The notes under the pieces were generated by a model. That model was not told where the DNA came from. It saw nothing but the letters and a program-made list of their open reading frames with translations, and did not search any database. Shown here piece after piece: positions 17,892 to 37,989 of a stretch of DNA of 40,449 bases. The position numbers and the translations under genes were made by a program. The stretch is from Ruminiclostridium sp. (lineage in GTDB: Bacteria; Bacillota; Clostridia; Oscillospirales; Ruminococcaceae): assembly GCA_017479645.1 (NCBI GenBank), contig JAFVBZ010000051.1, positions 1-40,449 on the forward strand, read 5' to 3'. How positions within the stretch are numbered: position 1 is the stretch's first letter; the number at the start of each line of letters is the position of its first letter.

Positions 17892-17973
17892 GAGAGAGTC
17901 GCGCACTGCGCTCGAGAGGGTCGCTTACGCTCGAGAAGAGTCGCTTGCGCTCGAGAGGGTCGCTTGCGCTCGA
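17892..17973 (+). repeat. Tandem 19-22 base array at abi stop codon
   Basis: Four units (17892, 17914, 17933, 17953) of the form GAGAGRGTCGCTTGCGCTC follow the TAA stop directly, then GAGACTTGGGGG. Each core is a small palindrome such as GCGCactGCGC. An equivalent array follows the fabH stop. Confidence 0.85.
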
Positions 17974-18133
17974 GACTTGGGGGAAACCTTTCTGAAGAAA
18001 GGTTCGTCTGTCGGTCAGCCCCTCTGTCACCTGACGGTGACACCTCCCCTCTGAAGGGGAGACACCCCAAACCCCTTTCCAAAGACTTTTAATCGCTCCG
18101 CAGTTAAGGGAGAGGGTAATCAGAACAGAATAA
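17974..18133 (+). repeat. Gene-end repeat family 2, body after abi
   Basis: Contains hairpin AACCTTTCTgaagAAAGGTT and a 43-base module at 18007-18049 that recurs with one mismatch at 28378-28420 (after the XRE gene). It ends with TTTAATCGCTCCGCAGTTAA, also found after fabH near 37997-38015. Confidence 0.75.
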
Positions 18134-18170
18134 AGACTGCTGAAACTAACGAATTTCAGCAGTCTTTTTT
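18134..18170 (+). terminator. Intrinsic terminator after abi
   Basis: AGACTGCTGAAA/TTTCAGCAGTCT perfect 12-bp stem, eight-base loop, then TTTTT. The same stem is reused at 28612. Confidence 0.9.
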
Positions 18171-18184
18171 GTATTCAGATCAAT

Positions 18185-18396
18185 ATAGCTAACCGTGGAG
18201 CTGCACCCGCCCATTGAAGAATGTCGCTACGCATTTCGCCGCGGCGCGTCCGCCGCCCCATCAGCCGAAGGCAGCAGGTACAGCAGAGACTTGTGTAAAG
18301 TCACGCAGGACGCGCCCATACAGAGCATCCGAAGCAGCGTCGCCTCTCAAAAACTCACTTTACATCTCTAAATCTCTTAAAACTCTCAAAAAAGAC
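18185..18396 (-). repeat. Orphan reverse copy of family 2 before gatC
   Basis: Read on the minus strand it starts TTTGAGAGTTTTAAGAGATT, passes through GCTGCTTCGGATGCTCTGTA and ends in the 39-base module at 18219-18257, which recurs at 24050-24088 after the flotillin gene. No minus-strand gene ends here, unlike all other copies. This fills the gap between the abi terminator and gatC. Confidence 0.7.
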
Positions 18397-18425
18397 TTGC
18401 ATTATTATGTATTTTATAGTATAAT
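18397..18425 (+). promoter_or_regulatory. Promoter of gatCAB-aspS
   Basis: TTGCAT (18397-18402), 17 bases, TATAAT (18420-18425); this rules out a gatC start at 18429. Confidence 0.75.
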
Positions 18426-20225: not shown

Positions 20226-21659
20226 ATGTCTGATCTTTACCCCACGATAGGTCTGGAGATACACGCCGAGCTCCTGACAAAGTCCAAAGTATTCTGCACC
20301 TGTTCCGCGAAATTCGGCGGCGAACCGAATTCCCGCTGCTGCCCGGTATGCTCCGGTATGCCCGGAACTCTGCCGGTACTGAACCATACCGCCGTTGAAT
20401 ATATCATAAGAGCGGGTTATGTAACGAACTGCGAGATCTCGCGGTTCACAAAATGGGACAGAAAGAACTACTTCTATCCCGATCTCCCGAAGGCTTACCA
20501 GATCTCGCAGATGCCGAGACCCGTATGCCTTAACGGATATGTGGACATAATGGTGAACGGGCAGGAAAAACGTATCCGAGTAAACCGCATACACCTTGAA
20601 GAGGACGCAGGAAAGCTCGTCCATGACGAGGCTACCCGCTCCAGCCTTGCAGACTACAACCGCTGCGGAATACCGCTGATCGAAATGGTCACCGAGCCGG
20701 ATTTCCACAGCGCGGAAGAAGTCGTTGCTTATGTCGAGAAGATAAAGCTTCTCTATAAGTACGCCGGCATCTGCGACTGCAAAATGGAGCAGGGCTCCCT
20801 CAGATGCGATGTCAATATCTCCCTCGCGCCGAAGGGTTCGGACGTGCTCGGAACGCGTGCGGAGCTGAAAAACCTCAACTCCACAAAGGCGATAGTCCGC
20901 GCGATAGAGTATGAGATATACCGTCAGACGGAGATCATCGAGTCCGGCGGAAAGGTATTGCAGGAAACAAGGCGCTTCTCCGATTCCACGGGCGAGACCA
21001 CGGCGCTCCGCTCCAAAGAGGACGCCCACGACTACAGATATTTCCCCGATCCGGATATCCCGCCGATAATCTTCACCGAGGAAGAACTTGCCGCAATAAA
21101 GGAAGCTCTTCCGGAAATGCCCGAACAGCGCAGGGAGCGCTATATCTCCCAGTACGGACTTGCTCCCGCAGATGCGGACAACATCATAAACGACAAGGAT
21201 ATCTGCGACTTCTATGAAGCTGCAATAAAGGCTTACAACAAGCCCAAGACCGTTGCGAACTTCATTCTCGGCGAGTTCATGCGCCGCATAAATCTCGGCG
21301 AAATGTCAATGGACAGCCTGAAATTCGCGCCGGAGGATCTTGCAAGACTCATAGAGCTGGGCGATACCGACAAGATCAACAAGAACAACTACAAGACGAT
21401 CTTTGTCGAGATGATAAACACCGGCGACAAGCCCGATGCCGTATGTGACAGGCTTGACCTCTGGGTAAAGGAAGACAGCTCGGCTGTTGAAGCAGTAATC
21501 GACAAGCTCATCGCCGACAACCCCAAGCCCGTTGAGCAGTACCGCGCCGGCGAACAGAAAGTGTTCGGCTTCTTCATGGGTCAGGCAAACAAGGCTCTCA
21601 AGGGTCAGGCAACCCCGAATACGATCAAGGCAATTCTTGAACAGAAATTAAAAGGATAA
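20226..21659 (+). CDS. gatB: Asp/Glu-tRNA amidotransferase subunit B
   Basis: A 477-residue kinase and transamidase subunit that activates Glu-tRNA(Gln) or Asp-tRNA(Asn) and binds the tRNA. It opens with TIGLEIHAELLTKSKVFC, includes the zinc-type cysteines CTCSA...CCPVCSGMPG, and ends with the YqeY-like tail (TIKAILEQKL). Ribosome binding site AAAGGAG; 18 bases after gatA. Confidence 0.97.
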   Translation: MSDLYPTIGLEIHAELLTKSKVFCTCSAKFGGEPNSRCCPVCSGMPGTLPVLNHTAVEYIIRAGYVTNCEISRFTKWDRKNYFYPDLPKAYQISQMPRPVCLNGYVDIMVNGQEKRIRVNRIHLEEDAGKLVHDEATRSSLADYNRCGIPLIEMVTEPDFHSAEEVVAYVEKIKLLYKYAGICDCKMEQGSLRCDVNISLAPKGSDVLGTRAELKNLNSTKAIVRAIEYEIYRQTEIIESGGKVLQETRRFSDSTGETTALRSKEDAHDYRYFPDPDIPPIIFTEEELAAIKEALPEMPEQRRERYISQYGLAPADADNIINDKDICDFYEAAIKAYNKPKTVANFILGEFMRRINLGEMSMDSLKFAPEDLARLIELGDTDKINKNNYKTIFVEMINTGDKPDAVCDRLDLWVKEDSSAVEAVIDKLIADNPKPVEQYRAGEQKVFGFFMGQANKALKGQATPNTIKAILEQKLKG

Positions 21660-21677
21660 AGAAAGGAACATAAAACA

Positions 21678-23465
21678 ATGTTCACAGCAAACAAGTACCG
21701 TGACCACAACACGGCTATGATATCCGAAGCGGATATCGGAAAACAGGTCAGAGTCTCCGGCTGGGTGGAGAATATCAGAGATCACGGCGGTATCGAGTTC
21801 ATCGATCTCCGCGATCACTACGGAATGCTGCAGGTCACATTCCAGAACAACGAGAAACTTCTTGAGGGCATAAACAAGGAGTGCGCGATCTCTATCGCCG
21901 GCACGATCATCAAGCGTGACGAGAGCACCTACAACCCCAAGATCGCTACAGGTACAGTCGAGCTTGCCGCAGAGAGCGTGGATATACTCGGAAAGGTGAC
22001 AACACAGCTTCCTTTTGAGATTCCCACATCTCACGAGAACAACGAGGATATCCGTCTGCGCTACCGTTTCCTCGATATGAGAAACAGAAAGGTGCATGAG
22101 AACATCGTGTTCCGTTCGCAGGTAATGAGCTTCATGCGCGAGAAAATGACAGAGCTGGGATTCCTGGAGCTCCAGACTCCCATACTCTCCACATCGTCCC
22201 CCGAGGGCGCGAGAGACTACCTGATACCGAGCAGAAAGCACCACGGCAGATTTTATGCGCTGCCGCAGGCTCCGCAGATATTCAAACAGCTCTACATGGT
22301 TTCCGGCTTCGACAAGTACTTCCAGCTTGCACCATGCTTCCGTGACGAGGACGCGCGTGCAGACCGCACACCGGGCGAGTTCTATCAGCTCGATCTCGAA
22401 ATGAGCTTTGCTACCCAGGAGGACGTTTTCGCAGCCGCAGAGCAGGTATTCCCGGCTATCCTCGAAAAGTTCGGAAAGAAGCAGTACACCCATGCTCCTT
22501 TCCCGCGCATCACCTACGAGGAAGCAATGCTTAAATACGGCTCCGACAAGCCGGATCTCCGCAATCCGCTGTTTATAATCGACGTTTCCGATCTGTTCGT
22601 TGACAGCTCGTTCAAGCCGTTCTCGAACAAGACCGTCCGTGCAATACGCGTTCCGAAAATGGCAGAAAAGTCAAAGAGCTTCTTTGAGAAAATGGAGGAA
22701 TACGCGCTGTCAATAGGAATGAAGGGTCTCGGCTACTTCAAGGTAGAAGAGGGGCTCAAGTTCAACGGTCCTATCGACAAGTTCCTGCGTGAAGGCGACA
22801 GGGAAGAGCTTGCAAAGCGTGCCGGGCTTGAAGTAGGCGACGTACTCTACTTTATCGCTGACAACAAGAAGAATGCGGAGAAGTTCGCAGGTCAGATAAG
22901 AAATGAAGTTGCATCGAGAATGGGACTTATCGACGAGGACAGATTTGAGATCTGCTGGATAGTTGACTTCCCGATGTACGAGGAGGACGAGGAGACCGGA
23001 AAGCCGATCTTTACACACAACCCGTTCTCTATGCCCCAGGGTGAGCTGGAAGCGCTCAACACCAAGAACCCCTGCGACGTTCTCGCATACCAGTACGACG
23101 TTGTATGCAACGGCGTAGAGCTTGCGTCCGGCGCAGTCCGCAACCATGATATTGACGTTATGGTAAAGGCATTCGAGATAGCCGGATATACCGAGGAGGA
23201 CGTAAAGGAGAAGTTCGGTGCGCTTTACAGTGCATTCAAGTATGGCGCTCCGCCTCATGCAGGTATGGCATTCGGCATAGACAGAATGATAATGCTGCTT
23301 CTTGACGAGGACAGCATACGCGAGGTAATCGCATTCCCGCTGAACTCCAACGCACAGGATCTCCTGCTCGGCGCGCCTACCGAGGTTACGGAACAGCAGC
23401 TGCGTGAGGTTCATATCAAGGTGCGTCAGCGTCCGCAGGATATCAAGAACAACCAGCAGCAGTAA
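21678..23465 (+). CDS. aspS: Aspartyl-tRNA synthetase
   Basis: A 595-residue class IIb synthetase of bacterial type. It has an N-terminal OB anticodon-binding domain (about 15-105), motif 2 near FRDEDARADRTPGEFYQLD, the bacterial GAD insertion (about 290-420) and motif 3 GAPPHAGMAFGIDRM. Cotranscription with gatCAB suggests it is non-discriminating and also makes Asp-tRNA(Asn) for amidation; this is inference from context. It ends in a Gln/Asn tail. The ribosome binding site is GAAAGGAAC. Confidence 0.96.
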   Translation: MFTANKYRDHNTAMISEADIGKQVRVSGWVENIRDHGGIEFIDLRDHYGMLQVTFQNNEKLLEGINKECAISIAGTIIKRDESTYNPKIATGTVELAAESVDILGKVTTQLPFEIPTSHENNEDIRLRYRFLDMRNRKVHENIVFRSQVMSFMREKMTELGFLELQTPILSTSSPEGARDYLIPSRKHHGRFYALPQAPQIFKQLYMVSGFDKYFQLAPCFRDEDARADRTPGEFYQLDLEMSFATQEDVFAAAEQVFPAILEKFGKKQYTHAPFPRITYEEAMLKYGSDKPDLRNPLFIIDVSDLFVDSSFKPFSNKTVRAIRVPKMAEKSKSFFEKMEEYALSIGMKGLGYFKVEEGLKFNGPIDKFLREGDREELAKRAGLEVGDVLYFIADNKKNAEKFAGQIRNEVASRMGLIDEDRFEICWIVDFPMYEEDEETGKPIFTHNPFSMPQGELEALNTKNPCDVLAYQYDVVCNGVELASGAVRNHDIDVMVKAFEIAGYTEEDVKEKFGALYSAFKYGAPPHAGMAFGIDRMIMLLLDEDSIREVIAFPLNSNAQDLLLGAPTEVTEQQLREVHIKVRQRPQDIKNNQQQ

Positions 23466-23513
23466 TGCACGAATGATCCCGCATTGTCAAATATTTAGGA
23501 GGAAGATGATACT

Positions 23514-23789
23514 ATGGCTGAAGGATTTATAACATACAAGGGTTTCCCGCTGGTAAGAAAGGGAAACGAGATATATTACGGTAATATGAGCGACGAATAT
23601 GTGACGTATATGAATGTTGTATCTACACACGACGAAAACGGGATAGCGGCTGCCGATAAGATAAAGGTGTTTATGATGAAGACGGAAAAGGGTCTCGACC
23701 CTATCTCCGCTATCGTCAAGTCCAGCGACCGCACAAGCCTTTACGACGCACTGGATATCGCGAATATCTGGCTGTCGAGAGAGATGTGA
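23514..23789 (+). CDS. Small soluble protein of unknown function
   Basis: A 91-residue protein with an AGGAGG ribosome binding site. It begins MAEGFITYKGFPLVRKGNEI, suggesting a beta-hairpin fold, and ends in a helical DALDIANIWLSREM. No signal, membrane segment or metal motif is present. I do not recognise a named family. It follows aspS by 48 bases, probably in the same transcript. Its TGA stop is followed at once by a family 2 repeat. Confidence 0.75.
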   Translation: MAEGFITYKGFPLVRKGNEIYYGNMSDEYVTYMNVVSTHDENGIAAADKIKVFMMKTEKGLDPISAIVKSSDRTSLYDALDIANIWLSREM

Positions 23790-23963
23790 GTGAGAGATTT
23801 TGAGAGATTTTCAAGACGGGGCGCTGCCCCGGACCCCGCCAGCCCCCTTTGAAAAAGGGTGCTGGACACCCTAAATAAATGCAGTATTTCAGAGCGTACA
23901 GCTATGGGCGAATGCCGACTGAAACGCAGTGGGGTTGGCAAATACTCCATTCAGAAAATAACA
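23790..23963 (+). repeat. Gene-end repeat family 2, left arm of inverted pair
   Basis: Starts next to the stop with GAGAGATTTTGAGAGATTTT, then GACGGGGCgctGCCCCGGACC, CCAGCCCCCTTTGAAAAAGG and a 70-base tail ending in CCATTCAGAAAATAA. The reverse complement of 28667-28836 matches over about 170 bases with roughly a dozen differences by eye. Confidence 0.85.
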
Positions 23964-23967
23964 AGAA

Positions 23968-24003
23968 AACAGCTTGCAGAAACAATCACTGCAAGCTGTT
24001 TTT
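23968..24003 (+). terminator. Intrinsic terminator of aspS transcript
   Basis: AACAGCTTGCAG pairs with CTGCAAGCTGTT, nine-base loop, then TTT. It sits between two oppositely oriented repeat copies, midway between convergent genes. Confidence 0.8.
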
Positions 24004-24019
24004 AATCTGATGAGTATAA

Positions 24020-24224
24020 CTAACCGAGGTGGCGCACCCGTCAATAGAAGAATGTCGCTACGCATTTCGTCGCGGCGCGTCCGCCGCCCCCCTTTTTCAA
24101 AGGGGGCTGGCGGGGTCCGGGTCACGGCAGGAAGCCGTGAGTAGGCTGCCAAAAGGCACGCACGATGCGTGCATATAGAGCAGCCGAAGCAGCCCCCCGT
24201 CTTGAAAATCTCTCAAAATCTCTC
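24020..24224 (-). repeat. Gene-end repeat family 2, copy at flotillin gene
   Basis: Read on the minus strand it starts at the TGA of the flotillin gene with GAGAGATTTTGAGAGATTTT, then GGGGGGCTGCTTCGGCTGCTC, hairpin GCACGCatcGTGCGTGC, GGACCCCGCCAGCCCCCTTT, and ends with the module at 24050-24088 shared with the orphan copy before gatC. Confidence 0.8.
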
Positions 24225-25817
24225 TCAAGCCTCTGTGGGAGTCTCGTCTGCGGCAGAAGCTGTAACGGGTGTGCCGAGGTAGTCGGGAAGCTTCATGCCG
24301 GCCTGGTCGAACATCTCACCGAGGGGAGGAACAGACTTGAAAAGTCCGCTGATAAAGTCGGCAGTTGAGTTCTTGCCGTCGCCGCCCTTTGAACCGCCGT
24401 CCCAGACAGTGACCTTGTCGATCTTGATGTTCTTGATAGCGTCCACCTGAATGCGGAGAAGGTCTTCCATCTTGTCCGCAAGTATCAGCTTTACTGCGTC
24501 GTCCGCGGTTCCGGCTGTATTTACGAGTTCGCGCATACCTTCCGCCTGCTTCTGGAGCATCTCGCGCATACCGTTTGCCTGTGCTTCCATTTTCGCGTAA
24601 ATAGCGTCCGCTTCACCCTTTGCCTTGCGGCGGATAACCTCAGCTTCCGCTTCCGCAGCGATCTGAGCCTGTTCCTTGGCTATCTGCGCCTTTACAATTA
24701 TATCAGCCTGCTGGGTCGCCATTTCAAGCTGTGCACGCTGCTGCTCCGCGAGTTTCTGTGCAGCGTACGCTTCTTCGCGTGCCTTTGCAGCCTGTACCGC
24801 TTCCGCTGCAGTAGCAAGTTTCAGCGCTTCCGCTTCCTTCTCGCGTCTCTGTGCGTCGGACTGCGCTATCGCGATCTTAGCCGAGTTTTCACCCTCTACC
24901 GCCTTTGCGTTAGCAGCCGCAACTTCGATACGCTGCTCGCGCAGAGCGTTCGCCTGTCCGATCTCACCGTCTCTGCCGGTCTGCGCGATAGCGATCTTCG
25001 CGTCATTTGCAGCCTTTGCGTCAGCCTCAGCCTCGCGGAATCTTCTCGATGCCTCGGACTGTGCTACCTCTACCTTTGCCGCGTTCTCACCGTCAATTGC
25101 ACTTGCATTTGCAGCTGCTACCTGGATACGCTGGTCACGGTTCGCGTTAGCTTCACCGATCGCACCGTCACGGTTCTTCTCTGCAACGGATTTCTTCGCG
25201 TCGTTGATAGCCTTTGCAGCCGCTTCCTTACCGAGAGCCTCGATATATCCGGACTCGTCGCGGATATCGGTTACGTTTACATTGATAAGACGGAGTCCGA
25301 TCTTGCGAAGCTCGATCTCAACGTTCTTGGAAACTGCGATAAGGAACTTGTCACGGTCTGTGTTGATCTCCTCGATCTCCATTGTAGCAATTACAAGACG
25401 GAGCTGACCGAAGATGATATCCTTTGCAAGCTCCTGGATCTGCTGCATCTTAAGTCCGAGCAGTCTTTCCGCTGCGTTCTGCATTACGCCGGGCTCTGTG
25501 GAGATGCCGACAGTAAAGCTCGAAGGTACGTCAACACGGATATTCTGCTTCGACAGCGCGTTGCGCAGATCGACGTTTATCGATATAGGCGTAAGATCCA
25601 TGTACTGGTACGACTGGATTATCGGCACGATGAATGCCGCGCCTCCGTGAATGCAGCGTGCGCTGCGTGCCTGACCGCTCTTGTCGCTGCCGACCTTACC
25701 GTAGATAACGAGTATCTTGTCAGACGGGCATTTGCGGTACCGGGAGAGTATCCCTCCGAACAGCGCGAACAGTATTATCACGCCGACCGCTATTGCAACA
25801 ATAATGATAGGATCCAT
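24225..25817 (-). CDS. floT: Flotillin (SPFH/band 7 protein)
   Basis: A 530-residue membrane scaffold protein. A hydrophobic N-terminal hairpin or helix (3-23) precedes the SPFH domain (about 28-190). A long Ala/Glu-rich coiled coil follows (about 195-430), then a C-terminal segment ending PTEA. Family knowledge: FloT with an NfeD partner organises functional membrane microdomains; in B. subtilis yuaF-yuaG are adjacent, as nfeD and floT are here. Residues 215-270 and 281-336 are a clear internal duplication of period 66 (for example QRIQVAAANASAIDGENAAK and QRIEVAAANAKAVEGENSAK). The ribosome binding site is AAAGGAGG. It is the last of three genes transcribed from the promoter near 27.24 kb. 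Confidence 0.93.
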   Translation of the reverse strand: MDPIIIVAIAVGVIILFALFGGILSRYRKCPSDKILVIYGKVGSDKSGQARSARCIHGGAAFIVPIIQSYQYMDLTPISINVDLRNALSKQNIRVDVPSSFTVGISTEPGVMQNAAERLLGLKMQQIQELAKDIIFGQLRLVIATMEIEEINTDRDKFLIAVSKNVEIELRKIGLRLINVNVTDIRDESGYIEALGKEAAAKAINDAKKSVAEKNRDGAIGEANANRDQRIQVAAANASAIDGENAAKVEVAQSEASRRFREAEADAKAANDAKIAIAQTGRDGEIGQANALREQRIEVAAANAKAVEGENSAKIAIAQSDAQRREKEAEALKLATAAEAVQAAKAREEAYAAQKLAEQQRAQLEMATQQADIIVKAQIAKEQAQIAAEAEAEVIRRKAKGEADAIYAKMEAQANGMREMLQKQAEGMRELVNTAGTADDAVKLILADKMEDLLRIQVDAIKNIKIDKVTVWDGGSKGGDGKNSTADFISGLFKSVPPLGEMFDQAGMKLPDYLGTPVTASAADETPTEA

Positions 25818-25876
25818 AGTGTTTTCCTCCTTTGGATTTTCCCTTATATCTGTGCAGCTTTCGCCGCATTTTACCG

Positions 25877-26437
25877 TTATTTGTTCTCTGTGATCTTTAC
25901 ATCGCCTATCGACATAAGGATCAAGCCGAATATGGCGAGCTTTTCGTTTATTACTTTTTTGAGATGCTCCTCAAACACTGCTTTTTCCGCATTCTCGTCG
26001 TATTCCTTCATAGCTTCCGTAAGTGCAGCCGAGACTGTCTCGCTGACGGTTTCCTCAATTGCTTCGTGAGACGAGCCGTGGAATGTCGGCGCAAATATCT
26101 GGAGCTTGTCTTCGGGGAAATATACCGTAAGCATAGCCGCAGCACGGTAACTTCTGCCGTTCTTTCCCTCCGCTTCATCGCAGAAGGCTTCTGTATGGAA
26201 CGGTACCTTCTTTATATAGAAGAACTTGCTACGCAGGGAATAAACATTCTCGCCGTAACTTGCCTTTCGCGGACTTATCGAGTAGGCTCCGTCCCGGTAC
26301 TGTATGCGGTAGCAGTCGGCGGTCCGTTCCTCAAGGTCATGCTCCTTCGGCAGAAATACTATGAGGCAGCCTACACCTCCGATAACCACCAGAGCTATAA
26401 ATCCCCAGAAAATATAGTCTATCATCTGAAGCTCCAT
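25877..26437 (-). CDS. Minimal SPFH-like membrane protein
   Basis: A 186-residue protein with one N-terminal transmembrane helix (about 5-29). Start 26437 has GGAGG six bases upstream. The rest resembles a lone SPFH/PHB domain: YRAAAMLTVYFPEDKLQIF, a helical DENAEKAVFEEHLKKVINEK and a closing LAIFGLILMSIGDVKITENK parallel the flotillin segment ending RKIGLRLINVNVTDI. No coiled coil follows. It lies between nfeD (13 bases) and floT (59 bases), so a role in the same complex is likely. The SPFH assignment is by eye and could be wrong; otherwise it is a hypothetical membrane protein. Confidence 0.65.
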   Translation of the reverse strand: MELQMIDYIFWGFIALVVIGGVGCLIVFLPKEHDLEERTADCYRIQYRDGAYSISPRKASYGENVYSLRSKFFYIKKVPFHTEAFCDEAEGKNGRSYRAAAMLTVYFPEDKLQIFAPTFHGSSHEAIEETVSETVSAALTEAMKEYDENAEKAVFEEHLKKVINEKLAIFGLILMSIGDVKITENK

Positions 26438-26450
26438 GCTTCGCCTCCGT

Positions 26451-27155
26451 TCACACCTTTTCGACAACAAGCACGTTGTCGCTTCTTATGTCAATAACTC
26501 TTATCTGTGTACCGTCCGGGAGCGTTTCGTTCCCGTCAGTCATAGCGTCGTATTCCACAAGTCTTTCGCCGCTTGTCACATTTACTTTGCCTTTGCCCAT
26601 GCCGTTCGCCGGGATCACGAGATAAACAGTGCCGTTCGCACCGAGAAGATTTCTTACATTAAGAGTGCCGTTCTGTGCGAGTTTCCGGGAAAGCTGCATC
26701 AGCTTTGCAACTCCGTACATTGCCGCAAGTCCGAGCACGAATCCGACTACGACAGCTATTATGGCTATTTTAGTGAGCGTGTATGTAACTATGCCCGCCC
26801 AGCCGAACACGCAGAGGAATGTGATTATTCCCTGCACCGTGAAGAAATTCAGCGTTCCCACATCGGACGGGTTGCTTCCGTCGCCGTAGTCGATGTCAGA
26901 GGCATCGGAGCCGTCGGAACTGTCGAAGTCTCCGCCGCTCATATCTCCGTCTGCACCGCCGGCGTCGAAGTCCATATCTCCTCCGCCGTCAAATCCGGAA
27001 GTGTCGCTCGGGTTAACGCCCGCGCCGCTGTGTCCGAATCCGAGGATAAGCATTATCGTCTGTATCAGCAGTATCAGTGTCGCCGGTATTGCTACGCAGT
27101 ACATTATCTGCTCGAACAGCTCCAGTGTATTCCACCAGTTATTGAACCATTCCAT
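26451..27155 (-). CDS. NfeD-like membrane protein
   Basis: A 234-residue protein. Start 27155 (MEWFNNWW) has GAAAGGAAG upstream. It has a transmembrane helix at about 15-38, then an Asp/Gly/Ser-rich acidic loop of about 55 residues (FDGGGDMDFDAGGADGD and following). Two close helices come next (about 105-127 and 130-150), then a C-terminal OB-fold NfeD domain (LLGANGTVYLVIPANGMGKG to VLVVEKV). No ClpP-like protease domain is present, so it is the short YuaF type that works with flotillin. The acidic loop is unusual. First gene of nfeD, SPFH-like, floT. Confidence 0.87.
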   Translation of the reverse strand: MEWFNNWWNTLELFEQIMYCVAIPATLILLIQTIMLILGFGHSGAGVNPSDTSGFDGGGDMDFDAGGADGDMSGGDFDSSDGSDASDIDYGDGSNPSDVGTLNFFTVQGIITFLCVFGWAGIVTYTLTKIAIIAVVVGFVLGLAAMYGVAKLMQLSRKLAQNGTLNVRNLLGANGTVYLVIPANGMGKGKVNVTSGERLVEYDAMTDGNETLPDGTQIRVIDIRSDNVLVVEKV

Positions 27156-27217
27156 ATAAACACTTCCTTTCACGAAAATGAACGCATGGAACAATTGTGT
27201 AAATGTAATTTACTATA

Positions 27218-27245
27218 ATTATACCACATTTTCGCCCGGTGTCAA
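27218..27245 (-). promoter_or_regulatory. Promoter of nfeD-flotillin operon
   Basis: On the minus strand TTGACA (27240-27245), 16 bases, TATAAT (27218-27223) with TGG before it: near-perfect consensus. Confidence 0.85.
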
Positions 27246-27256
27246 TAATTAATCGA

Positions 27257-27274
27257 ACGATTTTTCAAAATCGT
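27257..27274. promoter_or_regulatory. Inverted repeat between divergent promoters
   Basis: ACGATTTT-tc-AAAATCGT, a perfect 8+8 palindrome 12 bases upstream of the nfeD -35 and about 70 bases upstream of the ybjQ -35. It is a possible operator for the nearby XRE regulator; this is inference from position only. Confidence 0.4.
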
Positions 27275-27342
27275 GATACTGCACAACACCGCTCTGCGAA
27301 ATTTAGCAATATGCCGAAAATGAAAAAATGCAGGGAAAACTA

Positions 27343-27371
27343 TTGATTTTTTGGTATTTATGTGATAAAAT
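27343..27371 (+). promoter_or_regulatory. Promoter of ybjQ-XRE
   Basis: TTGATT (27343-27348), 17 bases, TAAAAT (27366-27371). Confidence 0.65.
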
Positions 27372-27430
27372 CGTAAGTAAATAAGATTTACCTATTGTAA
27401 ATGAGTTTCAGACCGTGAAAGGAGTTTACT

Positions 27431-27745
27431 ATGCTTCTCGTAACTACAGAATTTATTGCAGGCGCGAATATCCAGATGCTCGGGCTTGTAAAGGGCAGCA
27501 CGATACAGACTGTGAATGCTATCCGCGATTTCGGTGCAAGCCTCAAGACTATCGTAGGCGGTGAGCTCAAGAACTACACCGAGATGATGGACACAGCCCG
27601 TGCGATAGCAACTGACCGCATGGTACAGGAAGCGGGAATGATGGGAGCTGACGCGATAGTAGGCGTGAGATACACCACTTCCGCGGTAATGGCGAGTGCG
27701 GCGGAGATAATGGCTTACGGAACTGCGGTAAGGATAGTAAAGTGA
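27431..27745 (+). CDS. YbjQ/UPF0145 family protein
   Basis: A 104-residue protein of the YbjQ (putative heavy-metal-binding, UPF0145) family, which forms pentameric beta-rich assemblies of unknown function. Family signatures are GLVKGSTIQTVNAIRDFGASLK, then MMDTARAIATDRMVQEA and ADAIVGVRYTTSAVM. Ribosome binding site GAAAGGAG. It is transcribed with the XRE gene 41 bases downstream. Confidence 0.9.
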   Translation: MLLVTTEFIAGANIQMLGLVKGSTIQTVNAIRDFGASLKTIVGGELKNYTEMMDTARAIATDRMVQEAGMMGADAIVGVRYTTSAVMASAAEIMAYGTAVRIVK

Positions 27746-27786
27746 CAAACCGCACGGTATTATAATACAGAAAGGAGACAGCGCCT

Positions 27787-28314
27787 ATGGATCCCGCGGA
27801 ACTCGGTAAAAGAATAAAGGAAGCCCGGCTTGCAAGGAAGATGACGCAGGCGGACGTAGTAGGTGATTTCATCACCAGAAATATGCTGAGCCAGATAGAG
27901 AGCGGTACGGCGAACCCGTCCGTGAAAACGCTCACTTATCTTGCGAAGGTATTGCAGCTCCCGGTGAACTATCTGCTTCCGGACGAGCTGGAGACATTTG
28001 ATGACAGCGAAAATGCCGCGGTCAAGGATCTCGACGCGCTTATCCGTATGAAGAGTGCTTTCAACCGCGGTGACTATGCTCTTGCGGCTGAACTTGCAAT
28101 GCCGTTCACGGAGAGCGGTAACATCGTGTATGATGAAGCATGCTCGGTGGCGGCGATGTCATATCTCGAACTCGCAAAAGCGGAGAGCGAGCCGAAAAAG
28201 GCGATAGAGCTTGCCCGGAATGCCGAGAAGTTCTCCGGACTGGGCATCTTCGCCAAGCGTGACGTCCGCGCGTCGGCTGTACTGCTTATCAGCGAATTGG
28301 CAGAGAGACTTTGA
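27787..28314 (+). CDS. XRE-family regulator with C-terminal helical repeats
   Basis: A 175-residue protein. Residues 5-60 are a Cro/CI-type helix-turn-helix (LGKRIKEARLARKMTQADVV, then NMLSQIESGTANPSVKTL). Residues 80-175 look like TPR-like helices (FNRGDYALAAELAMPF, AMSYLELAKAESEPKKAIEL). It resembles peptide- or ligand-sensing XRE regulators in shortened form. Ribosome binding site AAAGGAGA. Likely targets are its own promoter or the divergent nfeD operon. Its TGA stop overlaps a family 2 repeat. Confidence 0.85.
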   Translation: MDPAELGKRIKEARLARKMTQADVVGDFITRNMLSQIESGTANPSVKTLTYLAKVLQLPVNYLLPDELETFDDSENAAVKDLDALIRMKSAFNRGDYALAAELAMPFTESGNIVYDEACSVAAMSYLELAKAESEPKKAIELARNAEKFSGLGIFAKRDVRASAVLLISELAERL

Positions 28315-28480
28315 GAGAGATTTTGAGAGAATTTGAGATTTCAGAGAGGGGGCTCTGCCCCCCAACCCCCCGCAATGTCTGTCGGTCAGCCCCTCTGTCA
28401 CCTAACGGTGACACCTCCCCGTTTGCGGGGAGATTACCCTTTAAAAAAGGGGTCTTAACCCCCTAAACTAATGCGCCGCA
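28315..28480 (+). repeat. Gene-end repeat family 2, copy at XRE gene
   Basis: Begins TGAGAGAGATTTTGAGAG including the stop, then hairpin GGGGGGCtctGCCCCCC, the 43-base module 28378-28420 shared with 18007-18049, and hairpin CCCCgtttgcGGGG. The 130 bases after it, up to the terminator, hold nothing I can assign. Confidence 0.8.
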
Positions 28481-28611
28481 CAAGTGAAGTTTTATCTCAC
28501 ATCTTGCACAGGCGGCGACTCATTGACCGCTTTCAGACTATTTCATAGTTTTGATTCTACTATTCTGTATTCATCAATGGGGAGACAGATTCCGGAGTTT
28601 TGGTTCAAAAA

Positions 28612-28647
28612 AGACTGCTGAAAACTTATGCTTTCAGCAGTCTTTAT
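28612..28647 (+). terminator. Intrinsic terminator of ybjQ-XRE transcript
   Basis: AGACTGCTGAAA/TTTCAGCAGTCT stem identical to the one at 18134, different loop, then TTTATTT. It is about 300 bases past the XRE stop. Confidence 0.85.
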
Positions 28648-28666
28648 TTATTTCATAAGGTCTTTC

Positions 28667-28866
28667 TTATTTTCTGAATGGAGTCTTCGCCAACCCCACT
28701 GCGTTTCAGCCGATACCCGCCCATAGCTGTGCGCTCTGAAATACTGCATTAATTTAGGGTGTCCAGCACCCTTTTTTAAAGGGGGCTGGCGGGGTCCGGG
28801 GCAGCGCCCCGTCTCCAAAATCTCTCAAAATCTCTTAAAGTCTCTAAAAAGTCTCAACAAAATCTC
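28667..28866 (-). repeat. Gene-end repeat family 2, right arm of inverted pair
   Basis: Starts at the TGA of the rubrerythrin gene (GAGATTTTGTTGAGAC, then GAGATTTTGAGAGATTTT) and continues as a near copy, in reverse orientation, of 23790-23963. Confidence 0.85.
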
Positions 28867-29397
28867 TCAGACCGCTCTCTCGAAATACTCTTGCGGCTTC
28901 TTGCAGACGGGGCAGAACTCCGGCGCTTCCTTGCCGCAATGGAGGTGACCGCAGTTCCGACATCTCCACACGATCTCGCCGTCCTCGCTGAACACCTTGC
29001 CGCTGTCGATAAGCTCGATAAGACGGCGGTAGCGCGCTTCGTGCTCCTTTTCGATATTGCCGACCTGCTCAAAAAGCGAGGCGATATTGTCAAAGCCTTC
29101 CTCCCGCGCTACCTGCGCAAATCCCGCATACATATCCGTCCACTCGTAATGCTCGCCGCCCGCCGCGTTTTCAAGCGCCGCTTTCGTGTTCGCAGGAATA
29201 CCCTCGCTTATAAGCGACAGCCACAGCTCCGCATGCGCCCGCTCGTTGTCTGCTGTCATATCGAAAATGTCCGCTATCTCGCGGTTTCCCTCTTTACGCG
29301 CGATCTCACCGTATATGTTGTATTTCGTCCGCGCCTGCGCCTCCCCGGCAACCGCCGTTTTCAGATTCTCCAGCGTCCTTGAACCGTCTAACTGCAT
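28867..29397 (-). CDS. rbr: Rubrerythrin
   Basis: A 176-residue peroxide-scavenging diiron protein. The four-helix ferritin-like domain carries GEAQARTKY (Glu19), DNERAHAE (Glu52), AREEGFD (Glu99 or 100) and EKEHEARY (Glu117, His119) as diiron ligands. The C-terminal rubredoxin-like domain has Cys146-x2-Cys149 and Cys162-x2-Cys165. It reduces hydrogen peroxide in the cytoplasm of anaerobes. Start 29397 ([12 protein letters not shown]) is the family start with AGAGG upstream; the ORF extends further but without support. A TGTATAAT (minus strand, near 29450) may be its -10. Confidence 0.95.
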
Positions 29398-29450
29398 AAT
29401 ATCAGCCTCTTTCCTTTGTTTTGGTGATATTATGTGCATCTTGAGACGGA

Positions 29451-29999
29451 TTATACATGGAAAGTCTCTGAATATCCGTTTATTGCGGGGATAAGGCACA
29501 CTGCGGTAAGTACAGCAAGTGGAATAAGCCATAGGAATGATCTGCCAGTAAAAAGCTTGTTCGGCATAGCAAGAAACTCCGCATAGTGCTTCCTTTTTAT
29601 TAGTATGATATGAATTATCGCTCCGATAAGTATCAGAAATGAAACTCCGCCACATATCACACAGAAAATCTCCCGCGGTATCCGGGACAATCCGCTGAAC
29701 GCCCAGCCGGACGGCGGGTTCAGCTCATCATAAATAATACCGGCTGCACAGGCGGCAAGCGGTATTCCGACAGTGATCGGCATAGCTTTCAGCCGCTTGA
29801 ACCTCGTTTCGGTACAGATCCCGATAAATCCCGCAAGTATCGGCAGCCAGACCCCCGCAAATAAAGTTATCGCAAAAAAGCTAACATGATCGAAAGCGCT
29901 GTCGGGCGGACTGCTTATAAATATCAGTAATTCAAGAAGCGCCGTTATCGCTTCCGCGATTGTGGCAGCTATAAACAACGGTTTTATTCTTTTATTCAT
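29451..29999 (-). CDS. Integral membrane protein, function unknown
   Basis: A 182-residue protein with about five hydrophobic segments (7-29, 39-62, 73-90, 112-133 and 155-172). No motif is recognised. Start 29999 (ATG) lacks a good ribosome binding site; a TTG at 30014 is an alternative. It begins only 16 bases beyond the acpP terminator, so either it is read through or transcription begins from TATAAT on the minus strand near 30049-30054, inside the acpP 3' region. It precedes rbr by 53 bases. Confidence 0.65.
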
Positions 30000-30014
30000 T
30001 TTTCTGTTGATCAA

Positions 30015-30041
30015 ACAAAAACCCCGCCGTTGCCGGCGGGG
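30015..30041 (-). terminator. Intrinsic terminator after acpP
   Basis: CCCCGCCG-gcaa-CGGCGGGG followed by TTTTTG on the minus strand; a very stable hairpin. Confidence 0.9.
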
Positions 30042-30060
30042 TATTCTTCCATTATATAAA

Positions 30061-30294
30061 TCAGCCCTCTGTGTTCTCCTCGATGTACTTTACTACATCG
30101 CCGACAGTCTTTATGTTCTCGACCTGATCGTCAGGGATCTCAAGATCAAACTCGTCCTCAAAGCTCATAACGAGATCAACGATATCGAGAGAATCTGCAC
30201 CGAGATCGTCCTGAATGTTAGCGTTAAGAGTTACCTTATCCTCATCAACATCGAGCTGGTCAACGATAATGCTCTTTACCTTGTCAAAAATCAT
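30061..30294 (-). CDS. acpP: Acyl carrier protein
   Basis: A 77-residue acidic carrier of growing acyl chains. Phosphopantetheine attaches at Ser35 in GADSLD. Start 30294 ([16 protein letters not shown]) has GGAGG seven bases upstream. It has its own promoter and terminator, so it is transcribed separately from the acc/fab genes ahead of it. In many Clostridia acpP lies between fabH and fabK; here it is at the far end of the cluster. Confidence 0.96.
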
Positions 30295-30330
30295 AATATA
30301 GCCTCCGTTTATTTTTATTACTGTATCACC

Positions 30331-30359
30331 ATTATAAATGATAGTATTCAAAAAATCAA
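30331..30359 (-). promoter_or_regulatory. Promoter of acpP
   Basis: On the minus strand TTGATT (30354-30359), 17 bases, TATAAT (30331-30336). Confidence 0.75.
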
Positions 30360-30377
30360 TAGCTTTTTTTATTTTTT

Positions 30378-30409
30378 AAAAAATTGGCAATTTTTAACAA
30401 ACGATTGCC
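30378..30409 (-). terminator. Terminator after accA
   Basis: GGCAAT/ATTGCC six-base stem with a 12-base loop, then AATTTTTT on the minus strand. Weak stem but good T-tract. Confidence 0.6.
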
Positions 30410-30441
30410 TTATATTTAAGCATTTTGCCGAATGCACTGTC

Positions 30442-31248
30442 TCACTCTTCCGCGAAAACGCCTATTTTACGGAACTTGTCATATCTGCGGGCAAGAAGTG
30501 TTTCGGTATCGAGTGCCTTTAACCGCGGTATCGCATCGGCAAGGTAATCGCCGATACTCTCCGCTGTAAGATCGGGCGCGGTCTGCGCACCGCCGTCCGG
30601 CTCATCTATGATATGCTCGCATACGCCGAAGCGGACAAGATCTTCCGCGGTTATCTTCATAAGCTCTGCCGCTTCCGATTCACGGGAAGCGTCCTTCCAG
30701 AGTATGGAAGCGAATCCTCTCGGGGAAATGACCGAGTAGAGCGCATTCTCAAGCATCGCCAGCTCGTCGCATACCGCAAGGGCAAGTGCTCCGCCGCTTC
30801 CGCCCTCTCCGAGAACAATGGAGATTATCGGTGTGCGCAGGGTCATAAATTCCATAAGGTTACGGGCGATAGCTTCACCCTGTCCGCGCTTCTCTGCTTC
30901 AATGCCGCAGAATGCGCCGGGCGTGTCAACAAGGCATATCACCGGTCTGTGGAACTTTTCCGCCTGCTTTGCAAGACGGAGCGCCTTGCGGTAACCCTCC
31001 GGGTGCGGCATTGAGAAGTTGGACTGCTTGTTTTCTTCGAGGTTGCGTCCCTTTACCTGTGCAAGCACGGTAACAGGCTTTCCCGCAAACATACCCACAC
31101 CGCCGATTATCGCGGCATCGTCTCCGAAATGCCTGTCTCCATGGAGCTCAAGGAAGTTCGTGAAAAGCGCGGGGATATAATCCCTTACCGTGGGTCTGCC
31201 CTTTTCGCGGATAAGCGCGAGTCTTTGTGTAGCCGTAAGATCGCTCAT
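30442..31248 (-). CDS. accA: Acetyl-CoA carboxylase carboxyltransferase subunit alpha
   Basis: A 268-residue carboxyltransferase alpha subunit, crotonase fold. It has [16 protein letters not shown] and the acyl-CoA carboxylase block [26 protein letters not shown], then [15 protein letters not shown]. With AccD it moves CO2 from biotin to acetyl-CoA, giving malonyl-CoA. ATGA overlap with accD suggests translational coupling. Confidence 0.96.
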
Positions 31249-32159
31249 GCTCCCGCACCTCCCTTGTATTCTTCCGCCCGGGTGTAGTTGTGGGTGCGGA
31301 AGATCTTTGAAAGCGTCGGGCGAAGATATTTCCTCTCGACGATCATATCAACGAATCCGTTCTCAAGCATAAACTCTGCGGACTGGAAATCATCCGGAAG
31401 CTTCTGCTTTATGGTGCCTTCTATGACGCGTCTTCCGGCAAATCCGATAAGCACTTTCGGCTCGGCGATTATGATGTCGCCGAGGCTTGCGAACGAAGCG
31501 GTCACGCCGCCGGTAGTGGGGTCTGTCATTACGGTGACGTAGAGCTGACCTGCTTCACTGTGGCGTGCGATAGCTCCGGAAGTCTTTGCCATCTGCATGA
31601 GGGATATGATGCCCTCCTGCATTCTCGCTCCTCCCGACGCTGTAAAAAGCACTACCGGCAGCTTATGCTCTGTGGCGTACTCGAATGCGCGGGTGATCTT
31701 CTCGCCCACTACGCTGCCCATGCTCGCCATCATGAAGTTACTGTCCATAATGCCGATGACCGCGTTGTACTTGTGTATCTTGCAGGTGCCGGTTATGACA
31801 GCCTCTTTCATGCCGCAGCTTGCCTGAAGCTCCGCGATCTTGTCCTCGTAGCCGGGGAACTCGATAGGATTGAGCGATGCGAGACCCGGATCGAGCTCGA
31901 CGAACGTTCCCTTGTCAACGGTCATTTCAAGCCTTTCGCGGTAGCCTATGCGTGCATGGTAATTGCAGGAGGAACAGACCGACTTATTGCGCTCGAAATC
32001 GTCTCTGTAAACAACTGTGCCGCATCTCGGACACTTGAAAAGCAGCCCCTTGGGTATTTCAACACCCGCTGCGGGCTTTTTTGTTTTTGCATCGGTCTTG
32101 GGTTTGGTATCAGCCTTTGACCTGTCTTTCACGACTTTGAAAAGATCTTCCAGAGCCAT
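31245..32159 (-). CDS. accD: Acetyl-CoA carboxylase carboxyltransferase subunit beta
   Basis: A 304-residue partner of AccA. Start 32159 ([10 protein letters not shown]) has AGAGGTGAT upstream; an upstream GTG is part of that site. The N-terminal zinc ribbon has Cys43-x2-Cys46 and Cys62-x2-Cys65. The carboxyltransferase core includes [22 protein letters not shown] and [16 protein letters not shown]. The Lys/Ala/Pro-rich stretch before the zinc ribbon (about 10-36) is a flexible N-terminal extension. Confidence 0.96.
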
Positions 32160-32221
32160 GCTTTTTATCACCTCTGAATACTGCCTGTGCCTGCTTTACG
32201 CGGACAGGTGGTTGTCGGTTG

Positions 32222-33565
32222 TCACGAAAAATCCTTGCGGTTAAGGAAGCCTATATCGAACCTTCCGCTGCGGAACTCCTTGTCACGCAGCAGATTCAGC
32301 TGGTAGTCGATATTCGTCTGCACGCCCTCGATCAGCATTTCGCCCAGCGCAACGCGCATCTTCGTTATAGCTTCTTCTCTGTCCTGACCGTGAACTATCA
32401 GCTTCGCGATCATGTTGTCGTAATACTGGGGGATCTCATAGCCCTGATAAACGGCGGTATCTATTCTCACGCCAAAACCGCCGGGGCAGTGTACAGACTC
32501 GATCCTGCCGGGGCAGGGACGAAATCCGTTCTTCGGGTCCTCCGCGTTGATACGGCATTCTATGGTATGACCGCAGAGCTTTACATCTTCCTGCTTAATG
32601 CCGAGTGGCATACCGTCTGCGATCATTATCTGCTGTTTTATAAGGTCTATCCCTGTCTCCATTTCGGTAACGGGGTGCTCGACCTGGATACGCGCGTTCA
32701 TCTCCATAAAGTAGAAGTTCCTGTCGTTATCCACAAGAAATTCCACTGTTCCGGCGTTCTGATATCCGCACGCCTTCGCCGCTTTTACCGCGGCCTCTCC
32801 CATTCTTTCCCGCAGCTCCGGCGTCATTATCGGGCTCGGAGATTCTTCCAGCACCTTCTGATTGCGGCGCTGGCAGGAGCAGTCGCGTTCACCGAGATGT
32901 ATCACGTTCCCGTGCTCGTCGGCGAGTATCTGTATCTCGACGTGGCGCGGATTTACGATAAACTTCTCTATGTAAACATCGTCGTTGCCGAAAAAGCGGA
33001 GCGCCTCCTGTTTTGCGGCAGTGAGTGCGCTTTCAAGGTCTTTTTCGCTGTCGGCACGTCTTATCCCGCGTCCGCCGCCGCCCGCACTTGCCTTTACAAG
33101 AACCGGGTAGCCTATTTCCGCGGAAATGCGCTTTGCTTCGTCAAGGTCTGCCACAACCCCGTCGGAACCGCGCACTACCGGGACTCCCGCCTTTATCATA
33201 GTCGCCTTAGCATTCGCCTTGTCGCCCATAGCTTCCATAGCTTCCGCTCCGGGACCTATCCACTTTATGCCGCACCTGTCACAGAGCCGCACGAACCTGC
33301 TGCTCTCGGAAAGGAATCCGAAACCGGGGTGTATGGCTCTTGCGCCGGTTATCTCGCAGGCGGCAAGTATAGCGCGGGTATTGAGGTAGCTGTCGGTGCT
33401 TCTCGCGCCGCCGATACATACCGAGCGATCGGCGATCTGCGCGTGGAGCGCGTTTTTGTCCGCGGTGGAATATACCGCCACGGTCTCTATTCCGAGCTCG
33501 CGGCAGGCTCTTATGATACGGAGCGCTATCTCGCCGCGGTTTGCTATAAGTATCTTATCAATCAT
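32222..33565 (-). CDS. accC: Biotin carboxylase
   Basis: A 447-residue ATP-grasp enzyme that carboxylates biotin on AccB. Start 33565 (MIDKILIANRGEIALRIIRA) is the canonical N-terminus; the 49 extra codons of the open frame upstream are read-in through a repeat. The ATP-binding Gly-rich loop ASAGGGGRGIRR, MEMNARIQVEHPVTEM and GHTIECRINAEDP are present. The ribosome binding site is weak and distant (AGAGAAGAG about 15 bases upstream), perhaps because repeat DNA lies between it and fabZ. Confidence 0.96.
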   Translation of the reverse strand: MIDKILIANRGEIALRIIRACRELGIETVAVYSTADKNALHAQIADRSVCIGGARSTDSYLNTRAILAACEITGARAIHPGFGFLSESSRFVRLCDRCGIKWIGPGAEAMEAMGDKANAKATMIKAGVPVVRGSDGVVADLDEAKRISAEIGYPVLVKASAGGGGRGIRRADSEKDLESALTAAKQEALRFFGNDDVYIEKFIVNPRHVEIQILADEHGNVIHLGERDCSCQRRNQKVLEESPSPIMTPELRERMGEAAVKAAKACGYQNAGTVEFLVDNDRNFYFMEMNARIQVEHPVTEMETGIDLIKQQIMIADGMPLGIKQEDVKLCGHTIECRINAEDPKNGFRPCPGRIESVHCPGGFGVRIDTAVYQGYEIPQYYDNMIAKLIVHGQDREEAITKMRVALGEMLIEGVQTNIDYQLNLLRDKEFRSGRFDIGFLNRKDFS

Positions 33566-33607
33566 CGGTATATAGTGTCTCTTCTCTTTGTTCAGTATCT
33601 TTTCAAT

Positions 33608-33736
33608 TTCCGTGTTACGGTCATTCGCCGCGGGGCGTTCCCCGCCGCCGTCCGCGCAATGCAGGAGGCATTGACAGCGGTCACCGAAAGCGCGCACGAT
33701 GCGCGCATACAAAGTGACCGCAAAAGGACAAGCGCG
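33608..33736 (-). repeat. Gene-end repeat family 1, copy inside FAS operon
   Basis: Read on the minus strand it begins at the TAG of fabZ with CGCGCTTGTCCTTTTGCGG, has hairpins GCGCGCatcGTGCGCGC nested within GGTCAC/GTGACC-type arms and GGGGAacgCCCC, and ends AATGACCGTAACACGGAA. It occupies most of the fabZ-accC gap. Confidence 0.8.
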
Positions 33737-34162
33737 CTATTTGATCGCGAATGTGATCTCTGCTGTGCAGGCTTTTTCGCCGTTTACGGTAGCGATGCCC
33801 TTGCCGACACCTACGGGACCCTTTACCTTTATGATCTCTACTTCAAGGCGGAGGGTATCGCCGGGAGCTACCTGACGGCGGAACTTGGCTTCCTTTACAC
33901 CGCCGAAGAAGCCGATCTTTCCCTTGTTTTCGGGAAGCATCAGCATCGCAACAGCGCCCGCCTGCGCCATCATCTCAAGGATAAGCACGCCGGGAACCAC
34001 CGGGTAATTGGGGAAATGACCCTTGAACCAGAAATCGTCGGGCTTGATGTGCTTGAGCGCAACTACCCGCTTTCCTTCCTCGATCTCCTCGATCTCGTCT
34101 ATGAGAAGGAACGGATCGCGGTGGGGGATTATCTCCTTTATCTGCTCGATATCCATTTTCAT
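33737..34162 (-). CDS. fabZ: 3-hydroxyacyl-ACP dehydratase FabZ
   Basis: A 141-residue hot-dog-fold dehydratase. Start 34162 has AAGGTG six bases before it; an upstream GTG is part of that site. The catalytic His49 lies in [11 protein letters not shown] and Glu64 in LILEMMAQ. It removes water from 3-hydroxyacyl-ACP. No fabA or fabM is in view, so unsaturated fatty acid synthesis must be handled elsewhere. Confidence 0.96.
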
Positions 34163-34172
34163 ATCTTTCACC

Positions 34173-34646
34173 TTACTCTATGCGCATTATCGGCTCGCCG
34201 AATTCAACAGCCTCGCCGTCGTCAACAAGTATCTCGGCAACTACGCCGTCATACTCGCTCGTAACCTCGTTCATCAGCTTCATGCTCTCGATTATAAAGA
34301 GCACATCGCCTTTATGTACCTGCTTGCCTACCGTAACATAGGGCGGCTTCTCCGGCGAGGGAGCCGCGTAGAATGTGCCGACTATCGGCGAACTTACAAT
34401 ATTACCGCTCTTCGAGCATTCCGCGCTCGGAGCAGGTATGGAAGCCTGCTGTACCGTCGGCATCTGTCCCATAGCCGGAAACGGTATCTGCATCGGAGGA
34501 GGCGGGGGAGCCATAGGAGGCTGCTTCTCACCCAGCTCTATCTCAAACTTGTCGTTCTTTATGCGGAAATAGCCGAGCCCGCTTTCCTTCATAAGCCCGA
34601 TATATTCCTTTGCTGCACCGAGCAGCTCACCATGTTCGTACTGCAT
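34173..34646 (-). CDS. accB: Biotin carboxyl carrier protein
   Basis: A 157-residue BCCP. N-terminal helical part, a Pro/Met/Gln/Ala linker with a PPPPPM run (47-75), and the biotinyl domain (about 83-157) with ESMKLMNEV; Lys123 is the biotin site. It carries carboxybiotin between AccC and AccA/AccD. It starts 12 bases after fabF. Confidence 0.96.
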
Positions 34647-34658
34647 AAAACCTCCGTA

Positions 34659-35891: not shown

Positions 35892-35904
35892 ATTATCTCC
35901 TTTT

Positions 35905-36904: not shown

Positions 36905-36944
36905 ATTATGTGCTCCTTTCGTCTCCGCTCACGCGGACGAGATC

Positions 36945-37001: not shown

Positions 37002-37016
37002 CGAAAGCGAATGTCT

Positions 37017-37940: not shown

Positions 37941-37989
37941 CATTCTATCCTTTCTCGCTTTATCTTCAAGCTGTTCGGAAGACCCGCCG

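Follow-up and report, generated by a model that had tools for sequence, protein, structure and literature searches.

The stretch of DNA analysed here (hereinafter the window) is 40,449 nucleotides long and makes up the whole of contig C139 in the draft genome of Ruminiclostridium sp. (assembly GCA_017479645.1; 3.31 Mb, 275 contigs; denoted G000 below). Two copies of a composite intergenic repeat, the element under study, occupy convergent gaps of the window from stop codon to stop codon. Element 1 (23790-24224) lies between a gene for a 91-amino-acid protein (23514..23789, plus strand; TGA stop at 23787-23789) and a flotillin gene (24225..25817, minus strand; TGA stop), and element 2 (28303-28866) between an XRE gene (27787..28314, plus strand; Pfam HTH_3) and a rubrerythrin gene (28867..29397, minus strand; Pfam PF02915) whose product ends in YFER followed by AV and the stop. 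The presence of copies behind these four genes, first proposed in a sequence-only reading of the window, is confirmed by gene calls made with our own codon model, which was trained on the loci under study.

Counted from the stop codon, the general plan of the element is an array (E), two hairpins (H1 and H2), an arm and, often, a terminator hairpin, followed by the mirror image of these parts; most elements are 0.2-0.5 kb long. The array consists of C-poor, GAGAGATTTT-like units of about 10 nt and contains TGA in all three frames within about 30 nt; the arm is formed by module M1, the reversed module M2 or other modules, which are exchangeable, and extra modules (M3 and M4) are nested within H1. 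In element 1, array E (23790..23816, plus) directly follows the stop of the 91-amino-acid protein gene and is succeeded by H1 (23817..23831, plus; GGGGC-GCT-GCCCC, with variants in the family), H2 (23839..23865, plus; CCAGCCCCC...GGGTGCTGG) and M1 (23877..23952, plus; identified by module search). Next comes a putative bidirectional terminator (23966..24004; AAACAGCTTGCAG...CTGCAAGCTGTTT), with an A-run ahead and a T-run behind; it has a predicted fold with a 15-bp stem and a 9-nt loop and was not called in a consensus terminator scan that permits loops of 3-8 nt only. The remainder of element 1 includes M2 (24013..24088, plus; 85% copy at 18168-18259, repeat D1), the mirror hairpin H2' with the start of H1' (24090..24124, minus; inverted repeat I4, 97%), the palindromic module M3 inserted within H1' (24119..24188, minus) and the end array E' (24198..24224, minus; inverted repeat I2, 93%), which lies directly behind the flotillin stop. 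Element 2 opens with an array (28303..28346, plus) that is located behind and overlaps the XRE stop, the last codons of this gene, GAG AGA CTT TGA, coinciding with one array unit; it carries M4 (28377..28433, plus; 89% copy at 18006-18062, repeat D3, and more copies in genomes G007, G011 and G024) and a second type of putative bidirectional terminator (28606..28648; AAAGACTGCTGAAA...TTTCAGCAGTCTTT; inverted repeat I3). Its mirror half (M1', H2', H1' and E'; 28664..28835, minus) is 92% complementary to 23793-23964 of element 1, M1 included, making a 172-nt inverted repeat (I1) common to the two elements, and the outer part of E' (28836..28866, minus) reaches the rubrerythrin stop.

The motif GAGAGATTTTGAGAG occurs exactly at 23792 (plus), 24210 (minus) and 28315 (plus), and at no more than 2 mismatches it has 7 matches in the window, compared to the expected 0.12; no Rfam family matches the window at the gathering score. 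Of the four stop codons that had been taken to be part of the motif, those of XRE and rubrerythrin clearly are, and those of flotillin and the 91-amino-acid protein gene are only adjacent to it. The uniform orientation of the copies relative to their genes holds as well, although it is largely a consequence of the two ends of the element being alike. The terminators of the two types, A in element 1 and B in element 2, are each homologous across many copies, which excludes the possibility that the terminator is a leftover of each gene's own gap. The role in termination envisaged in the sequence-only reading is supported to the extent that terminator hairpins are recognizable in the sequence: these and the other hairpins may contribute to termination and structure the 3' ends of transcripts.

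Across G000, GAGAGATTTTGAGAG has 49 matches at no more than 1 mismatch, compared to 7 for the reversed control, and a search with element 1 yields 115 matches at E <= 0.001. Loci were fetched around these matches, a choice that is independent of gene ends, and were compared with a sample that consisted of the window and 20 stretches not selected by the motif (200 genes called, 169 sorted into three gap classes). A sense stop codon is linked to 35 of the 47 motif clusters in the fetched loci (34 distinct stops), with 3 of these clusters located 73-150 bp from the stop; 9 clusters face the start of the neighbouring gene, 2 lie farther from gene ends (in L107, the sense stop is 229 bp away, and in L100, the start is at about 585 bp), and 1 is inside a coding sequence (L106), probably by chance. 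The trinucleotide GAG follows the stop at position +1 in 25 of the 35 stop-linked clusters (24 of the 34 distinct stops) compared to 9 of the 169 sample genes, 6 of which belong to the window, and the stop is TGA in 29 clusters, TAA in 3 and TAG in 3, compared to 90 TGA stops among the 169 sample genes. The fetched loci contain 55 element-bearing gaps, of which 27 are convergent, 20 tandem, 7 at contig edges and 1 divergent; the 160 neighbour pairs in the 20 sampled stretches include 19 convergent, 23 divergent and 118 tandem ones, and in the sample, divergent gaps contain about 4 times more DNA than convergent gaps, which have a median of 58 bp and typically hold one terminator. The ends of the elements that face stops (n=80) are a median of 3 bp away from the stop, with 55 of them within 20 bp, whereas those that face starts (n=23) are at a median distance of 121 bp (Mann-Whitney p about 1e-6). 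A type A or type B terminator is present in 22 of the 27 convergent gaps, 4 of the 7 edge gaps and the single divergent gap. The preference for stop codons and for one orientation, set beforehand as the test of the sequence-only reading, accordingly holds in G000 and, more weakly, in a second species, G015, that is described below.

In 33 of 34 cases, 13 nt or more separate the stop from the first GGGG, which was used as a proxy for H1 (the exception is a GGGG within an array), and the intervening stretch contains 7.7% C. Such spacing would be expected of a selected function in the mRNA, with the C-poor array serving as a landing strip on which a terminating ribosome stays away from hairpins that protect the transcript or terminate transcription. 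In the accessible part of PMC12306157, work is cited according to which ribosomes in Escherichia coli are stalled by repetitive extragenic palindromes (REPs) that lie within 15 nt of a stop, and the 5' half of element 1 has a predicted RNA fold (z -5.9) that is in line with this explanation. However, the predicted fold pairs the array itself instead of leaving it open, and the same arrays are found at far ends that face start codons, so that the array spacing may be a by-product; on balance, we consider a selected role of this kind quite improbable.

Tight association with stops could also be an artefact, whereby random insertions truncate genes and the array supplies the first stop met: with TGA in all three of its frames, any entering reading frame ends at once, and rubrerythrin is indeed slightly shorter than in relatives. 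For the tested genes, this scenario is largely refuted and appears to us extremely unlikely. In six sets of orthologues that lack the element, the check that the sequence-only reading had called for, the proteins end at or near the same residue, and thus, where tested, the stops are essentially native. In particular, the 91-amino-acid protein ends 2 residues past a shared WL(S/A/T)R, compared to 0-3 residues in six relatives; XRE has the same final residue in 3 of 3 relatives; RecR ends in ENRNEL* in G000 and in the related genomes G011 and G002, as read from the joins; the gene at 15794-16648 of contig C6 is one residue longer than in G011 and G002, its stop being TGA in G000 and TAA/TAG in these relatives; and the gene preceding the element at 19.2 kb of contig C208 is of equal length in G011 and G002, where the element is absent from the gap. 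Rubrerythrin makes up the sixth set. The C-terminal tails of flotillin vary among eight relatives, and its stop is TGA in G000 vs TAA in all 8; similarly, the RecR stop is TGA in G000 vs TAA in 2 of 2 relatives. Furthermore, NCBIfam matches reach the C-terminal end of GroEL, RecR and MnmE, and the latter protein (L101) ends in CVGK, which we take to be the universal C-terminal motif.

Gene order was compared for seven elements, with 20450-40449 covered in the window: four elements are clearly located at breaks of order, one weakly so, and two are not. Relative to G011 and G002, this part of the window consists of three collinear blocks that are found on different contigs, and the only two breaks between them are elements 1 and 2. 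In G011, an assembly of 30 contigs, all three blocks are at least 13 kb from contig ends; the more fragmented G007 agrees for the join at element 1 and contains no rubrerythrin match. A close relative of G000, Ruminococcaceae bacterium UBA3215 (Oscillospiraceae in the NCBI taxonomy; about 95-97% identity in the compared loci), turned up in a scan of named genomes for TTTTGAGAGATTTTGAGAGA, which has exact matches in 23 stretches, 5 of them from UBA3215; the layout of the element was absent from the 11 stretches examined among the other 18. Gene order in UBA3215 follows that of the window through element 1, and hence this join is not the error of one assembly. On contig C6, the segment 12337-15323, which includes RecR (NCBIfam) and presumably also ffs and dnaX, is inverted in G000 relative to G011 and G002. 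Both breakpoints carry an element, and the joins in the relatives carry none; one of these elements is the sole divergent copy and the other is convergent, so that the inversion accounts for the single exception to the avoidance of divergent gaps, and UBA3215 shares the arrangement of G000. A further inversion, of 3.2 kb on contig C204, distinguishes G000 from UBA3215 (95.7% identity), and in each of these two genomes it is bounded on both sides by element sequence. The weak case is an element at a break on C208, where the left block is a multi-copy gene.

The interiors of the elements change as well. For 17 gaps that could be paired between G000 and UBA3215, with interiors judged by M1-M3 and the two terminators, module order is kept in 8, the interior is flipped in 3 (L089, L065 and L061, the last with a changed terminator, too), one extra M2 is present in 2 (L086 and L082), and module content is clearly different in 4 (L064, L066, L084 and the gap at 10.3-10.8 kb of the window). 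Another 13 UBA3215 lines, two of which may represent one place, have one or no flank among the G000 loci and were left unpaired, and one further line with odd flanks corresponds to the C204 inversion. Within aligned pairs, the numbers of array units differ, modules, H1 among them, are swapped, and some modules are missing. Mobility, another of the suggested roles, is supported in the form of recombination (breaks, inversions and flips), with no transposase linked to the element in a search confined to the Y1 family. In G015, a genome of the same genus, an element with the same layout and different letters has 75 exact matches to a pattern of its own H2-arm core, compared to 0 for the reversed control. 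Among 30 loci read (these are element ends, in several cases both from a single element), a sense stop lies upstream of 17, 12 face a gene start and 1 has no upstream gene; GAG is found in the first 15 nt in 14 of the 17 stop-linked loci and at +1 in 8 of 17, compared to 7 of 44 for the other genes in these loci, so that the effect is less strong than in G000.

The precision of the junctions could point to insertion by an enzyme that targets the stop codon or the GAG that follows it and places the element at or just behind the stop. Besides GAG at +1, two comparisons speak for such targeting: the empty sites in G011 and G002 that correspond to C208 put the junction at the native stop, a few bases before the start-side sequence, and in the 10.3-10.8 kb gap of the window, different families occupy the same native stop, this element in UBA3215 and another family with a 90-amino-acid open reading frame in G000, each starting with GAGAG. 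Against it stand the 9 clusters that face start codons, an array end located away from the stop at 8.4 kb of C6, and the lack of a legible target-site duplication at two aligned empty sites. Moreover, the sole match to a Y1 transposase in G000 (PF01797), the only family sought, lies in a 3.35-kb locus where a pattern search detected none of E, M3, the CTCGAG unit, H1 and H2. Of the two alternatives left by the sequence-only reading, targeting of stops or selection at stops, the latter fits better, given that the element is alike at its two ends, that its far ends in tandem gaps are a median of 121 bp from the start codons they face, and that the C6 array end is away from the stop; targeting appears unlikely.

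Several other repeats were observed alongside the element. The copies reported behind abi and fabH do lie behind the stops of these genes; both stops, however, are TAA, and the arrays start differently. Behind abi, a related element (17892..18400, plus) consists of a CTCGAG-type hairpin array, M4, terminator B and M2, and its far-end array faces the start of the next gene; behind fabH, three 22-bp GC hairpin units with GAG spacers directly follow the stop (38206-38277). Hairpin units with GTCGCTTGCGCTCGAG form a second family in G000 and G007, located directly behind stops at 17892-17978 of the window, at 12357 in L138 and at the G007 flotillin gene (L184). Inverted AT-rich repeats at 35944-36143 contain AATTGTGCATTGTGAATTGTGAATT-like strings, which are also found in L066, in L138 and near the G011 rubrerythrin gene, suggesting another dispersed family. 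A 64-bp module related to M3, mostly at 82-83%, has many independent copies in G002 and G011 (L108, L110-L112, L114-L121), relatives that lack the whole element. A repeated stretch with a TTTTGAGAGA array, the same as here, is present in a candidate division WOR-3 genome (L256, L263, L269, L271, L272), with one copy 5 bp behind a stop. Finally, the flanked genes were considered as possible cargo and rejected as such: in Pfam searches of 10 neighbouring proteins, the 91-amino-acid protein had no match, and the matches obtained indicate ordinary genes (for example, HlyD-like protein, deacetylase, D-Ala carboxypeptidase and homocysteine methyltransferase).

Taken together, we consider it reasonably probable that repeats akin to bacterial interspersed mosaic elements (BIMEs) and BOX overwrite unselected 3' flanks until they are halted by selection at the stop codon. 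Under this scenario, copies of a dispersed composite repeat would recombine in place and across the chromosome, driven presumably by general homologous recombination along with deletion, and the outcomes would include changes in array length, module swaps, interior flips and inversions of gene blocks between copies. Overwriting of unselected intergenic DNA would stop where selection begins, that is, on the 3' side of a gene at its stop codon and on 5' sides typically about 120 bp before the next gene, in the promoter region; a TGA-filled array may then abut or replace the native stop without lengthening the protein. Overwriting bounded by selection accounts for stops being hugged, starts being mostly distant, divergent gaps being avoided and TGA being favoured. 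Several observations weigh against this account. Distances from the stop exceed 40 bp for 20 of the 80 stop-facing ends, and 6 of the 23 start-facing ends are within 20 bp of the start; the placement of GAG at exactly +1 is tighter than a pure selection boundary requires and is not fully explained, so that targeting or microhomology may play a part: the codons with which XRE natively ends are similar to an array unit. Only 7 of the 20 tandem gaps contain a terminator of type A or B, and behind MnmE (L101 2788), M2 directly follows the TGA with no array at the stop. Rubrerythrin is 1 residue shorter than its two nearest relatives (which end in KRS*) and 2-7 residues shorter than four others, which extend 4-9 residues beyond the same R, and the stop of the C208 gene is TAG in G000 and TGA in G011 and G002, that is, not a change to TGA. 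As regards rearrangement, two of the seven elements are collinear in relatives (C6 8.4 kb and C208 19.2-19.6 kb), C208 has breaks of order without any element, and the G000 contig C204 ends within the second element, so that this breakpoint is only half seen; in addition, draft assemblies can misjoin at repeats, and recombination is read here from comparison of sequences, with no event observed directly.

More tentatively, and with a rather low likelihood in our estimate, the elements might serve as chromosomal snap joints, at which recombination between copies joins gene blocks tail to tail. Genes would remain unharmed in the process because the copies end at stops, contain stops in all frames and often carry a two-way terminator. 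If so, snap joints would allow the lineage to rearrange its operons through ordinary recombination, with a freedom comparable to that of integrons, and the reproduction of the layout in G015 with other letters would mean that the design is favoured, beyond one repeat family. The interest of the repeat lies in the coincidence of its edge with stop codons while the C-termini remain essentially native, and in its association with inversion breakpoints and with interiors flipped in place between closely related genomes. This yields a testable account of how intergenic repeats could end up so close to gene ends and rearrange a chromosome harmlessly.

Among the matches listed for open-licence PMC papers, we found no earlier report of this repeat, of the two-ended array-to-stop layout or of the link to inversions, and no such paper was found for two of the sequence strings of the repeat and the name UBA3215. 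Nevertheless, calling it a new kind of gene-end element, as in the sequence-only reading, is too strong. REPs and BIMEs of the GTAG and CGTC families are intergenic palindromes, often paired and mostly located between convergent or codirectional genes; in two species, convergent REPs are mostly less than 20 bp from 3' ends, and the GTAG feet often supply the TAG stop, as far as the available portion of PMC3733652 describes them. Like these, the element has high-copy palindromes outside genes; unlike these, it is much longer and composite, a tandem array forming its ends and a terminator often being included, and it supplies mostly TGA from the array rather than TAG from the foot of a palindrome. 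Inspected by eye only, H1 and H2 contain no GTAG or CGTC tag, and M2 contains GTAGCGAC, with no tagged palindrome established; a REP-associated tyrosine transposase flanked by the repeat was not found, the one PF01797 match in G000 being that described above. With its terminal inverted repeats (I1, I2 and I4), length mostly within the 50-500 bp range and lack of a transposase gene, the element also resembles miniature inverted-repeat transposable elements, for which a parent transposon was sought via PF01797 only. BOX and SPRITE of Streptococcus pneumoniae, as described in the accessible parts of PMC3049150 and PMC10969869, are modular composites with a variable tandem part and nested insertions that are enriched between convergent genes, SPRITE being terminator-like. 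By description, with no comparison of sequences, the element shares modularity, the variable tandem part, nesting and convergent enrichment; judging from the same parts of those papers, it differs in having an array at both ends, ends that abut stops and copies that, in some cases, mark inversions. The G-rich heptamers of Xanthomonas and Nostoc are tandem repeats within 50 bp of stops or overlapping them, on the sense strand (PMC4692102, in the part available); they are of the G-quadruplex type, and, on that description, the unit differs and the body of hairpins and terminator is on the side of the element. Finally, integron attC sites are repeats that lie directly behind stop codons in a fixed orientation and are used in recombination; unlike them, the element flanks ordinary chromosomal genes and has paired inverted ends.

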